Source: a virus
Virus record (IMG/VR): IMGVR_UViG_3300032676_001946
Location: 1 to 24,707 of that record
Direction: 5' to 3' (one strand)
DNA length: 24,707 nucleotides
Shown: one piece after another, positions 8,291-12,321 of the stretch
Layout: each line of letters begins with the position of its first letter
Numbering within the stretch: the stretch's first letter is position 1
Position numbers and translations under genes: made by a program
The notes under the pieces: model-generated
The model's input: only the letters and a program-made list of their open reading frames with translations
Told to the model about the DNA's origin: nothing
Databases searched by the model: none

Positions 8291-8962
8291 TTACGCGGGC
8301 ACGCGAGCTTCGCGCAACCACTTGACTGCGATCCACTTGTCACCCTCAATCACAGCGTTGCCGCTGTGCAGGGTGCGTGGATCGAGTTGGCCTTCTGCAT
8401 CGCAGTAGGAGAAGAAACAGGCGTTCCCCTGGACAGCGGCCACCTTGATGCCGACGCTTGGAAACTCCGTTTCGCCACCCATGGGCACCGTGTTCAGGTA
8501 AATCAGAAAGGTGGCGATGCGCTGACCACCCTTCTCTGGTCGAACGATGTCGGCAGATGACGCACTCTCCAGTGGGAAGTAGTCCCAGTGCGGAACGTAG
8601 TGCTGGCCTGGCTGGTAGTTCAGCACCTGCAGGCCTTCGCCGTTCTCAACGGGTATGCCGGTGAGGTCAGCAATGCACTGCTCGATATCCGCAACCACTG
8701 GAAGCTCACCTCGCTGAAAATGGCAGCCAGAACTGGTGCGCGAGTCATCGACCCGTATGCCATCAATGTGGTGGACTACGGAGGACCGCTTCATGCGCGG
8801 CCGGGCAAGGTCAATCACTGCCTGGCACGCGGCGGCATCCAGAAGCTGGTCCAGCACAACCACATTCGGCTGCTTGATAGCGGCCAGTACCTGACAGCGC
8901 CGGCCGCTGGCCAAGACCTGCGCTGGCGGATAGTTCAGCAGGATCGTGGCCGAATCACTCAT
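8291..8962 (-). CDS. Prolyl 4-hydroxylase-like 2-oxoglutarate/Fe(II) oxygenase
   Basis: Protein of 223 residues of the P4Hc (prolyl 4-hydroxylase alpha subunit) family, which uses 2-oxoglutarate, O2 and Fe(II) to hydroxylate, classically, proline in peptides. The iron triad is complete: His125 and Asp127 in YVPHWDYF and His199 in RTLHSGNAV. Lys209 in EGDKWIAVKW is the expected 2-oxoglutarate ligand. NYQPGQHY and GGETEFP are further signatures. The ATG at 8962 overlaps the cupin gene by 8 bases and gives a natural N-terminus; 28 extra in-frame upstream codons would lie inside the cupin gene. Small P4H-like enzymes occur in large DNA viruses and some phages. The Pro-rich fibre encoded four genes upstream is a candidate substrate (inference). 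Confidence 0.87.
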   Translation of the reverse strand: MSDSATILLNYPPAQVLASGRRCQVLAAIKQPNVVVLDQLLDAAACQAVIDLARPRMKRSSVVHHIDGIRVDDSRTSSGCHFQRGELPVVADIEQCIADLTGIPVENGEGLQVLNYQPGQHYVPHWDYFPLESASSADIVRPEKGGQRIATFLIYLNTVPMGGETEFPSVGIKVAAVQGNACFFSYCDAEGQLDPRTLHSGNAVIEGDKWIAVKWLREARVPA

Positions 8963-9665
8963 GGCGCACCGCCGCGAGATACGTGCGGTTGAGCATCGGG
9001 TGATCCTGGTCAGTCGGCCCCCAGTCACCATCCGGATGGAAGGCAATCACATCGAGCCGATCATCGTCGGTGCGGAAGCGATGCAGTTCCCGCTCCTCAA
9101 TGCAAAAGAGCGTGCCGGCGACCAGCGGAATTTCCCGGTCGGCAAAGCAGGCGAACCCCGTGCCGCGCGCCACCACCCCTAATCGGATCGACGGATGAAT
9201 GTGAAACGACTGGCGCACACCGGCAGGAAACGACAGGTGGTTCAGGCTGGGGTCGCCACGGCGCGGCGGGTAGACCAGGAGCGAATCGGAGCAGTTGTCG
9301 ATGTAGCACAAGCGTCCCGATGCCTCGATTGGACCGCCGACCAAGCCTTGTCCCCGAAAGCCATGCCGCACGACCGCAAAAACCTGGGCATCACCCTCCC
9401 CGGCAAGGGACAGCGTGGCTGCTTCAGCACCGGTCGCATGGCAAAAATACTGGCCTTGGCCCGCATTGCGAAGCAGAGCGCCGGGTGCCGATGCATGCTG
9501 GCCAGCAACGAGGTGTGCCGCCCCATCGGCAGCGCCAGTAATCACATAGCCATACAGCGTCGAGAAAGGCGGCACGGTCAGATGGGTTTGGGTGTCCTTG
9601 GACAAGCGCCAGGCCTGCGATGGATACATGCCATGTCGGCCATCAATGTAGTCACCAGTTTGCAT
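8955..9665 (-). CDS. Cupin-fold protein (probable bicupin)
   Basis: A 236-residue protein. The C-terminal half fits a cupin: FPAGVRQSFHIHPSIRLGVVA has the first-motif spacing with His155 and His157, and IPLVAGTLFCIEERELHRF supplies the second motif with His195. The usual Glu ligand of motif 1 is replaced (Arg161), so metal binding may be altered. Residues about 30-110 look like a degenerate first cupin barrel without the histidines. Cupins include isomerases, dioxygenases and sensors, so the reaction cannot be named. The gene starts two bases after the stop of the 108-residue protein gene and overlaps the oxygenase, so all three are probably expressed together. Confidence 0.65.
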   Translation of the reverse strand: MQTGDYIDGRHGMYPSQAWRLSKDTQTHLTVPPFSTLYGYVITGAADGAAHLVAGQHASAPGALLRNAGQGQYFCHATGAEAATLSLAGEGDAQVFAVVRHGFRGQGLVGGPIEASGRLCYIDNCSDSLLVYPPRRGDPSLNHLSFPAGVRQSFHIHPSIRLGVVARGTGFACFADREIPLVAGTLFCIEERELHRFRTDDDRLDVIAFHPDGDWGPTDQDHPMLNRTYLAAVRHE

Positions 9666-9667
9666 GA

Positions 9668-9994
9668 TCAGGCTCCAGCTGTGGTGGTGCTGACGGCGAT
9701 GCCGTTGGCTTTGTTGTAGACCGAAGCCGCCCCAGCAATTTTGGCCAGGTCTGCGCTATTTGCCGCCTGAAAACTGGCGTAGTCGGCCTGGCTGTTCCAG
9801 ACCGTGGTGGTGGACTTGGTGAGTCCGTCGGGTGAAATCACCACGGAGCGCGACTGGACTGCCGGGTTGGTACGCACGGCGTGGCTGACGTTGGCCATTG
9901 ATGCAGCGACGTCCGGGGTCAGGCTGGTACTGTCTTTGAAACTTGTCACGCCACTGGCGGGACGGGTCGTGGTTTTGGTCACGGTAAACGTCAT
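9668..9994 (-). CDS. Unknown 108-residue Thr/Ser-rich phage protein
   Basis: I recognise no family. The chosen start is the ATG at 9994, preceded by AGAGGA at good spacing; a longer frame to 10063 has no ribosome site. The product starts MTFTVTKTTTRPASGV and is rich in Thr, Ser and Ala. An alternating strand-like stretch (SRSVVISPDGLTKSTTTVWN) and a helix (ADYASFQAANSADLAKIAGA) suggest a small alpha/beta fold. No signal peptide, membrane segment or catalytic motif is visible. It lies between the PP-loop ATPase and the cupin, so it could be a substrate or partner of those enzymes, or a minor virion protein. Confidence 0.6.
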   Translation of the reverse strand: MTFTVTKTTTRPASGVTSFKDSTSLTPDVAASMANVSHAVRTNPAVQSRSVVISPDGLTKSTTTVWNSQADYASFQAANSADLAKIAGAASVYNKANGIAVSTTTAGA

Positions 9995-11171: not shown

Positions 11172-11790
11172 GGCAGCCGAACCTCACAAAAAGCGGATCA
11201 AGATCGGCGGCGCAACGTGCCGCACGTACCTGCGCCAGCGTCTTCAGGCGGCGCACCTCGGACTGCACCAGTGCATCCTGGCGATCGGCGTATTCCATGC
11301 GCACCCGATCGGCGGCCGTGGTCAGCGTCGTTTCCCAAGCGTCGGCGATGGCTTGCAGCAAGGGCAATTCGCCACCGGGAGAAATGTCACTGCCCGCACG
11401 CTCGCCATTGCCCAATTGCTGGCACTCACCATAGGCCAGATCCAATAAGCGATCCTGCAGCGGCAACGACCCCTGCGTGAATCCGGCGCGCTGGGTACGC
11501 AGTGCTGCGTGCACACGATCCATCAGCAACAGGCGGCGATAGTGAAAACGGTAGTCTTCCGTATCGGGCGCAGTGTCTTGTCCCACTGCTGCCACCACCC
11601 CGTCACGTAGCCGATACAGGTAGGGCTTGCGGTAGCTGAACCCATCTGGCACTTCGCCCCAGTGGTGGAAGGGTTCGTAGCGCTCGTCGAGTTCCCGGGC
11701 AAGATGCTGCCGATCCAGATCGACGTAGTTGATGACATAGACGATAACGCCGGTGGGCATGAATACCAGACCGGCCATTTGCAAATACAT
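11164..11790 (-). CDS. Unknown 208-residue phage protein after the fibre gene
   Basis: No family recognised. AGGAG lies shortly before the ATG, 12 bases after the fibre gene stop. The N-terminus (MYLQMAGLVFMPTGVIVYVINY) is beta-rich and hydrophobic rather than a clear signal peptide. The rest is rich in charged helices, with paired Arg and Tyr in the middle (SYRKPYLYRLRDG, EDYRFHYRRLLL). A position right after a tail fibre is often that of a fibre chaperone or tail-tip assembly factor, but nothing in the sequence proves this. It overlaps the PP-loop ATPase gene and may belong to the same functional group. Confidence 0.6.
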   Translation of the reverse strand: MYLQMAGLVFMPTGVIVYVINYVDLDRQHLARELDERYEPFHHWGEVPDGFSYRKPYLYRLRDGVVAAVGQDTAPDTEDYRFHYRRLLLMDRVHAALRTQRAGFTQGSLPLQDRLLDLAYGECQQLGNGERAGSDISPGGELPLLQAIADAWETTLTTAADRVRMEYADRQDALVQSEVRRLKTLAQVRAARCAADLDPLFVRFGCHD

Positions 11791-11802
11791 GTGCTTCTCC
11801 TA

Positions 11803-12321
11803 TCAGCCTTGAGGTGGGGGTGGAGGCGGCGGAGGTGGTGGCGGCGGTACAGGCGCGGGCGTTGGAGTTGGTGCAGGCGTCGGTGTGGGTGTCGGCGTCG
11901 GAGCCGGCGTTGGCGTTGGCGTTGGCGTTGGCGTTGGCGTTGGCGTTGGCGTTGGCGTTGGCGTTGGCGTTGGCGTTGGCGTTGGCACAGGAGCAGGAGC
12001 AGGTGTCGGAGCCGGGGTCGGGGTCGGGGTCGGTGCGGGTGCCGGCGGTTTGTAGGACGCCAATGCTGAGGTGATGGCAGCTTGAACCAAGGCATTGATC
12101 GCCAGCGTGAGCTGGTTGAGTGCGGTGCGATCAGGCGTCAACCCACCCGCGATGATCGCGTTGCGGATTTCCTCGCTGACTTGATAGAACCAATAATCCC
12201 CCGGCGTCGTGGCCGGCGTATTCGTGGTTGGGTTGCCATCCGTGGGAAATCCGATCGACGGATTGCCGGGCACGGCAGGCGGGGTTTGGGCAGCATTGGC
12301 TTCCCAGACGCGGTTGTCCAT
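11803..12321 (-). CDS. Short tail-fibre-like protein with Pro-Thr repeat and polyproline end
   Basis: Protein of 172 residues directly after the gp48-type baseplate gene, where Mu-like phages encode the tail fibre. Residues 1-90 form a plausible attachment domain, with DYWFYQVSEEIRNAIIAGG and a helix TALNQLTLAINALVQAAIT. From residue 92 on it is almost wholly Pro with Thr or Ala: about 65 residues of PT/PA dipeptides, then VP followed by 12 consecutive prolines and a final QG. No globular receptor-binding domain follows. The extended rod-like end should be stiff and may be a linker, a bristle or a substrate for hydroxylation or glycosylation. A ribosome site (AGGAGA) precedes the ATG. Translating the proline run should depend on EF-P. 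Confidence 0.7.
   Translation of the reverse strand: MDNRVWEANAAQTPPAVPGNPSIGFPTDGNPTTNTPATTPGDYWFYQVSEEIRNAIIAGGLTPDRTALNQLTLAINALVQAAITSALASYKPPAPAPTPTPTPAPTPAPAPVPTPTPTPTPTPTPTPTPTPTPTPTPTPAPTPTPTPTPAPTPTPAPVPPPPPPPPPPPPQG
11906..11983 (-). repeat. 13 perfect tandem hexamers encoding (Pro-Thr)n
   Basis: Thirteen uninterrupted copies of GGCGTT (+ strand), read on - as alternating Pro and Thr codons. Imperfect related hexamers flank the block on both sides (about 11865-12045). As the unit is six bases, slippage would change the length of the protein rod by two residues per copy without breaking the frame. Confidence 0.95.

Follow-up and report, generated by a model that had tools for sequence, protein, structure and literature searches.

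Algal and plant prolyl 4-hydroxylases (P4Hs) act on the proline-rich repeats of hydroxyproline-rich glycoproteins. According to the part of PMC4132260 on substrates, most plant P4Hs accept collagen-like, polyproline extensin-type and arabinogalactan-protein (AGP)-like sequences, and a passage of PMC9676403 reports that the Chlamydomonas enzyme was crystallized with (Ser-Pro)5. In the cytoplasmic Skp1 pathway, hydroxylation by the P4H PhyA precedes glycosylation of the hydroxyproline, and hydroxylated Skp1 is a Gnt1 substrate in the account given in sections of PMC3515798. A virus-encoded P4H, that of Chlorella virus PBCV-1, is linked to 4-hydroxyproline in viral proteins in a passage of PMC9301287; the same part of that Baltic Sea survey places prolyl 4-hydroxylase among the most abundant water-column viral auxiliary genes and states that how viruses use it “remains cryptic.” Oxygenases of this kind are widespread in phages of marine bacteria, as a portion of PMC12774648 describes. 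Here we analyze a six-gene phage cassette that encodes a P4H-type oxygenase together with a proline-rich short tail fiber. It lies in a 24,707-base viral sequence, IMG/VR record IMGVR_UViG_3300032676_001946, the whole of which we call the window. On balance, we lean toward the view that the P4H hydroxylates the proline tail of the co-encoded fiber, so that the cassette would make a modified short tail fiber. No published description of such a phage fiber/P4H cassette was found in the open-access literature searched.

The oxygenase, the fiber and their cassette

The late genes of the window form a minus-strand set that runs up to a Mu gp48-like baseplate gene, continues through the six cassette genes and ends with lysis-type genes. 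All six open reading frames (ORFs) that an initial annotation had placed at 8291-12321 exist on this strand:

11803..12321, minus strand: Pro-rich short tail fiber, 172 amino acids (aa); PHROG tail-fiber matches, homologue tails compared
11164..11790, minus strand: p208, family-less, conserved in the cassette
10137..11171, minus strand: PP-loop ATP pyrophosphatase-like protein, 344 aa; motifs invariant in 6 sequence types
9668..9994, minus strand: p108, small Thr-rich protein, 108 aa, family-less, conserved in the cassette
8955..9665, minus strand: cupin-domain protein, 236 aa; PF02311, invariant histidines
8291..8962, minus strand: P4H-type 2-oxoglutarate (2OG)-Fe(II) oxygenase, 223 aa; PF13640, PDB profile match, invariant catalytic residues

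The oxygenase matches PF13640 with 49 bits against a cut-off of 27 (E 1.3e-12) and phrog_61 with E 3.1e-15. By its profile, the closest solved structures are those of the Chlamydomonas prolyl-4-hydroxylase (Cr-P4H; 2jig/3gze, E 3.2e-46). The iron ligands H125, D127 and H199 and the 2OG residues Y116, T151 and K209 are invariant in the six aligned types and in 71 of 71 other viral P4Hs, which upholds the initial annotation's claim of intact catalytic residues. Peptide-groove residues are named for P4H-TM and its relatives in part of PMC7948501. When their counterparts are read off the profile alignment to Cr-P4H (R93, W99, E127, Y140, R161 and W243), five of these six named residues are kept in the window enzyme, as R75, E109, Y122, R148 and W215. 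Judged by its sequence, the window protein is thus of the prolyl-4-hydroxylase type with intact catalytic residues, and activity on peptidyl proline is predicted.

The fiber consists of an N-terminal fiber domain (approximately residues 1-90) and a tail of 81 residues, 57% of them Pro and 28% Thr, which ends in 12 prolines followed by QG. Several PHROG tail-fiber families match residues 23-99, with E down to 1.4e-8, and a Pfam family search gave no match; this N-terminus and tail bear out the Pro-Thr/poly-Pro fiber-like protein first annotated. Its gene adjoins gp48 and so occupies the fiber slot. Throughout the cassette clade the usual fiber tip is replaced by 59-91 residues of 57-96% Pro, and in the seven full-length fiber types no C-terminal receptor-binding domain is present, the Pro tail standing in its place. 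The make-up of the tail varies: the window has a (PT)n part with a short poly-Pro end, L003 and L004 have Pro-Ala/Pro-Val mixed with poly-Pro, and L018 has 83 consecutive prolines. Proline codons are mixed in all seven tails (1.5-1.8 bits of 2), and the window (PT)n part includes a pure 6-nt repeat, CCAACG. Since the codons are mixed and the tails stay at 57-96% Pro despite their differing make-up, proline itself seems to be kept, and we see in this signs of protein-level selection for proline. No collagen-like G-X-Y repeats occur in the fiber sequences inspected.

Used as a query, the N-terminal part of the fiber found 18 loci, 14 of them in the cassette clade and four with other tips (L061-L064). 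One of these four fibers is Gly-rich and another presumably collar-like. No cassette gene was found in the examined stretch of any of the four. In L061, L063 and L064 the gene after the fiber codes for 152-174 aa, in the slot that corresponds to that of p208, and we take it to resemble a fiber-assembly gene.

The make-up of the cassette is constant. IMG/VR was scanned with the PP-loop protein, P4H, cupin and p108, and the same small record set was returned each time. All six genes occur in constant order in 11 of the 11 records that cover the region between gp48 and the lysis genes in full (the window, L002, L003, L004, L006-L011 and L019, with Xanthomonas sp. GPE 39 counted once, since L009 and L018 are the same fiber from that genome). 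The L008 fiber was found as an ORF, its repeats being missed by BLAST. These records represent about seven sequence types: L002 and L010 are 100% identical to the window, and L006, L007 and L011 have one common fiber. Six further records (L005, L039, L054, L055, L057 and L059) are cut by contig ends and contain only what fits; in L039:1-2388, a phage part at a contig end, the fiber gene is frame-shifted. The named carrier genomes are Xanthomonas sp. GPE 39 and X. albilineans CFBP2523, and in both an insertion with opposite-strand genes splits the PP-loop gene from p108. These insertions (L009:9044-10984 and L019:9965-10911) carry opposite-strand genes of ~230 aa and apparent partial p108 copies, and in L009 the 3′ end of the PP-loop gene is also duplicated.

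Against four relatives, the ratio of nonsynonymous to synonymous substitution rates (dN/dS) is 0.07-0.18 for the cassette genes and 0.08-0.13 for gp48, where the fiber comparison covers the N-terminal part and three of these relatives and the PP-loop value against L009 is saturated. The cassette genes are therefore under purifying selection similar to that on gp48. Their low dN/dS and fixed order make them look like long-resident, functional genes.

The genes are also closely packed. The initial annotation had several of them overlapping and likely made together: 8-nt overlaps are found at two junctions, p208/PP-loop and cupin/P4H, and the remaining gaps are 12, 142 and 2 nt, the 142-nt gap lying between the PP-loop gene and p108. 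A longer P4H reading from a TTG start at 9046 is disfavored because relatives align from the start at 8962. No sigma-70-like promoter was found within 7900-12600 (chance expectation 1.3), and the cassette likely forms a single transcript. Its immediate neighbors are as follows:

12340..12975, minus strand: Mu gp48-like baseplate protein, the upstream neighbor that marks the fiber slot (PF10076, E 5.6e-25)
7098..8238, minus strand: downstream neighbors, namely a 92-aa family-less protein, a DUF5675 protein and a holin with three transmembrane segments (PF18925, PF11351)

A longer record of 46,158 bases, IMGVR_UViG_3300032675_000040, contains the window sequence, identical across the full window length. 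On the plus strand at 32-7022, next to the phage lysis genes, lies a defense island that could be host flank or phage cargo. It comprises a type I restriction specificity piece, a PrrC-like protein and a type I restriction subunit R, then a phospholipase effector and a nucleotide cyclase like those of cyclic-oligonucleotide-based antiphage signaling systems (CBASS).

Companion proteins of the cassette

The PP-loop protein carries the motifs SGGIDS at 81-86 and TGELGDQLFGSD at 147-158, both invariant in the six sequence types. It was first annotated as asparagine-synthetase-like. Membership in the PP-loop superfamily is probable, and the family assignment does not hold: PF00733 (asparagine synthase) matches neither the window protein nor its L008 counterpart, and no N-terminal glutaminase domain was matched, the PP-loop already standing at residue 81 of 344. 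Searches gave no Pfam family, no PDB-sequence match and weak NCBIfam matches (LarE, E 0.019). A structure model with a predicted local distance difference test (pLDDT) score of 52.6 resembles HUP-type folds and N-type ATP pyrophosphatases (best Z 6.3), with fold matches to LarE, GMP synthetase, NadE and beta-lactam synthetase; because of that score, these matches cannot decide the subfamily. The only safe assignment is thus to the superfamily, as far as its sequence and model indicate. A profile match to alignment A6 (99% probability) would have linked the protein to asparagine synthase; we dismissed it as evidence because A6 includes the Cygsa01 proteins, for which BLAST by itself gives a match to the window protein.

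Among the sampled genomes, members of the PP-loop subfamily are rare. In an annotated phage collection it matched a single record, Pseudomonas phage Cygsa01, at two places. Profile A1 (E 1e-5) found it in 2 of 20 genus and 3 of 369 class genomes of the GPE 39 carrier and in 1 of 20 genomes in the order of a distant match; profile A8 (E 1e-8) found it in 1 genome among 398 in the phylum and 1 among 198 in the family, each of these counts including the genome on which the search centered.

The annotated cupin was confirmed, with PF02311 (AraC_binding) at 28.7 bits above a cut-off of 21.1 and PF07883 at 25 bits, just under its 27.2. Its invariant H155, H157 and H195 are candidate metal-site histidines. 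The p108 protein is conserved in the cassette at 68-71% identity and found no match in Pfam, PHROGs, NCBIfam or annotated phages; a likeness to small cyanophage proteins, which we had presumed, was not borne out, with no match at E 10. For p208, the same four collections gave no match and PDB no significant one, and its structure model has a pLDDT of 38.3.

Asparagine-synthase-like genes do stand beside oxygenases in other phages. In L043, L044 and L041, from Erwinia jumbo phages and Salmonella phage Sen-NF, such a gene adjoins a P4H-like oxygenase. We considered this pair in Y3, Yoloswag and Sen-NF as a repeat of the cassette and rejected that reading in favor of a separate system; in these three, the oxygenase has no Pro-rich ORF (at least 12 Pro in 30 residues) within 8-10 kb. 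The Y3 asparagine synthase is matched by 58 records. In the eight inspected, the synthase gene has DNA or tRNA methyltransferase genes nearby, and no 2OG oxygenase is annotated in the stretch; a neighbor scan covering one or two genes in seven of the eight returned methyltransferases in F1 and S-B05 and family-less proteins elsewhere. In PaBG, S-B05 and F1 an asparagine-synthase-like gene lies near a DNA cytosine methyltransferase, perhaps as part of a nucleic-acid modification system.

P4H-type oxygenases and (PT)n proteins in other viruses

Two surveys place the cassette in a wider context; the viral collection behind both may include viruses of eukaryotes. In a wide P4H scan, 80 of 250 relatives were taken, of which nine belong to the cassette clade and 71 are others at 32-50% identity. 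A Pro-rich ORF, defined here as 11 or more Pro in 30 residues, accompanies the P4H in 9 of these 71 loci; these nine are unvetted, and several of the ORFs lie on the strand opposite the P4H. In the other 62, no such ORF occurs in the examined 4-20 kb, so across the viral P4H family at large there is no fixed link to Pro-rich proteins. Two of the viral loci have a P4H domain fused behind a glycosyltransferase-25-like N-terminus (L105:323-1750 and L107:2042-3460, above the Pfam cut-off only in L107). P4H relatives also occur on plasmids (17 records), where the three contexts inspected are unlike each other, and in Methylomagnum a distant relative adjoins a cluster for a ribosomally synthesized and posttranslationally modified peptide (RiPP).

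A (PT)6 DNA-pattern scan found at least 120 stretches; the matches listed comprise 80 loci, 75 of them with an in-frame (PT)6 ORF. A P4H-type oxygenase is present in five of these 75 listed loci (L173, L178, L204, L217 and L222). In L178 and L173 it lies 3.9 and 7.5 kb from the (PT)n ORF, and in the other three it follows that ORF on the same strand after 202-442 bp. These three loci constitute a second (PT)n/oxygenase arrangement:

L217:838-5801, (PT)n protein and P4H-type oxygenase
L204:3366-8734, (PT)n protein and P4H-type oxygenase
L222:630-7586, (PT)n protein and P4H-type oxygenase

For the (PT)n protein, L204 and L217 gave matches to PHROG tail or virion-structural families and L222 only one to a family with no assigned function. 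A small DUF6171 gene stands between the (PT)n ORF and the P4H in L204; L217 and L222 have small genes resembling it. Downstream, L204 has an epimerase gene, and L217 has genes for a radical-SAM/SPASM protein and, second after the P4H, a PF11397 N-acetylglucosamine (GlcNAc)-transferase; L173 also carries a PF11397 gene. We take PF11397 to be the Gnt1 family, acting on hydroxyproline. It is possible that L204, L217 and L222 encode a hydroxyproline-glycan system. A GlcNAc-type glycosyltransferase is present in 2 of the 5 listed (PT)6 loci with a P4H versus 5 of the 75 without one, a difference that is not significant (Fisher P 0.058) and for which the query was the L217 gene itself, biasing the count toward the P4H-positive group.

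A tree was built from 51 P4H rows, among them 36 of the 71 viral ones, and came with a warning of long branches; in it the oxygenases linked to (PT)n proteins and those of the cassette fall into separate groups, each with 100/100 support. The P4H/Pro-rich pairing therefore looks to have arisen twice.

Proposed mechanism, rival explanations and known systems

If the fiber is the substrate, the following sequence of events may be envisaged. The 172-aa fiber probably binds the baseplate through its N-terminal domain. Instead of a globular receptor-binding tip it would extend its Pro-rich tail, likely as a stiff polyproline-II rod. The P4H, whose gene belongs to the same late set, would hydroxylate tail prolines in TP, AP and PP repeats, the type of sequence that plant P4Hs accept. 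Hydroxylation may stiffen the tail, supply hydroxyls for a further group, or both. The same fiber is probably also the target of the PP-loop ATPase, cupin, p108 and p208, perhaps through activation of a carboxylate or other group or through folding. That the fiber is the substrate, that its tail forms a polyproline-II rod and that it contacts the baseplate are our inferences, as are all roles given to the other four proteins. The hypothesis of the initial annotation, in which the oxygenase hydroxylates the fiber and the ATPase and cupin add or shape a further group, is upheld in part: by the conserved cassette in the tail-fiber slot, by the intact P4H that accompanies a Pro-rich fiber and by the signs of selection for proline. 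A broader view seems to us possible but doubtful: that phages build hydroxyproline-rich fibers as a counterpart of extensin, that accessory enzymes add a group to them (the PP-loop ATPase and cupin here, glycosyltransferases in the other phage group) and that the pairing arose at least twice.

Several observations weigh against fiber hydroxylation. The peptide-stacking tryptophan of the algal enzyme, W99 among the groove residues named in part of PMC7948501, is H81 in the window P4H; that position holds Trp in 0 of the 71 other viral P4Hs and is mostly Phe or Tyr. The other cassette genes occur in 0 of the 71 more distant viral P4H loci (E 0.01), 62 of which have no Pro-rich ORF in the examined stretch, and 70 of the 75 in-frame (PT)6 loci among the matches listed show no P4H in the stretch. 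In favor, three of the five P4Hs that are present lie within 500 bp of the (PT)n ORF, but the permutation P of 0.011 ignores the apparent kinship of these loci. Of the four cassette-free fiber relatives, only L063 and L064 have a downstream stretch longer than 2 kb. Within the 142-nt gap that separates the PP-loop gene from p108, the coding strand has two weak terminator-like sites. Finally, in L004 (P4H at 8431-9099) synonymous divergence (dS) from the window is 0.16 for the P4H versus 1.0-1.9 for the other cassette genes. A recombination boundary near the cupin/P4H junction is likely, and this contrast in dS means that the P4H is not strictly co-inherited with the fiber.

The P4H, with the cupin, might instead modify another virion or host protein or a small molecule, its proximity to a Pro-rich fiber being accidental. 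The varied contexts of viral P4Hs speak for such a substrate: an asparagine-synthase-like gene near DNA methyltransferases in Y3 and Yoloswag, DNA-metabolism genes in Sen-NF and, in L121, what we presume to be a capsid gene just before the P4H. So does the scarcity of Pro-rich ORFs in the 71 loci. Oxygenase genes without a Pro-rich virion protein, which the initial annotation had named as counterevidence, are largely the rule family-wide; within the clade, however, fiber and P4H occur together in 11 of 11 records, and the four fiber relatives that lack a Pro tail show no P4H in the examined stretch. We consider a substrate other than the fiber unlikely on this evidence, though it deserves serious attention. 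One such candidate within the window, the DUF2635 protein at 22067-22372, does have the Pro-rich character first ascribed to it, in a Pro/Ala/Thr-rich tail; it is a possible P4H substrate, with just 18-22% Pro in that tail in the four phages examined.

PP-loop synthetases and 2OG oxygenases occur together in beta-lactam-type pathways. The PP-loop ATPase, cupin and P4H could accordingly form a fiber-independent pathway of small-molecule or peptide biosynthesis, with p108 as carrier or substrate. The weak PP-loop model does resemble beta-lactam and carbapenam synthetases (Z 5.1 and 4.7), and the Methylomagnum P4H relative lies beside a RiPP cluster. This likeness is unspecific, however, because the best match is LarE in Foldseek and GMP synthetase in VIA, all within ~1 Z unit, and the cassette occupies the fiber slot, just as the PP-loop relatives of Cygsa01 follow a fiber gene. 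Such a pathway seems to us improbable. Least credible is the idea that the Pro tail is a low-complexity linker or repeat-expansion product with no special chemistry, placed next to these genes by chance. The CCAACG repeat would fit it, as would the commonness of (PT)n ORFs without a nearby P4H, but the idea accounts poorly for synonymous codons mixed over up to 83 prolines, for a Pro-rich state common to seven tails of differing make-up or for the constant gene order.

Both the cassette and the second (PT)n/oxygenase arrangement pair the enzyme with an obvious candidate substrate close by. If the fiber is indeed hydroxylated, viruses would chemically stiffen or decorate their own tail fibers, a phage-fiber chemistry without a description in the open-access literature searched. 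Such chemistry could also explain the purpose of prolyl-hydroxylase genes in many phages.

It is useful to set the cassette against the systems it most resembles. PBCV-1 likewise encodes its own P4H and differs in being a eukaryotic virus; to our knowledge, it has no PP-loop/cupin cassette. Among the phage 2OG-Fe(II) oxygenases of PHROG 61, which the window enzyme matches, most viral relatives examined have no Pro-rich ORF in the stretch. The Skp1 pathway invites comparison with L217, where a PF11397 gene follows the P4H, whereas no PF11397-type gene was recognized in the window cassette. Pseudomonas phage Cygsa01 (PP179332) differs in having no P4H, cupin or Pro-rich fiber in the 16.7 kb examined, and its genes beside the PP-loops are dissimilar to p108 and p208. 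It does, however, encode two PP-loop proteins of the same subfamily, separated by a 90-aa gene, in a tail-fiber locus, where they follow a fiber with an S74 chaperone domain and a Gly-rich protein; this is a second fiber-locus case of the subfamily. The algal and plant P4Hs with their hydroxyproline-rich glycoproteins differ from the cassette in that the window enzyme is phage-encoded, is paired with a tail fiber, has H81 for W99 and is accompanied by no recognized glycosyltransferase. Even so, they offer the nearest parallel for the enzyme itself, since Cr-P4H is its closest solved relative and Pro-rich repeats are the substrates.

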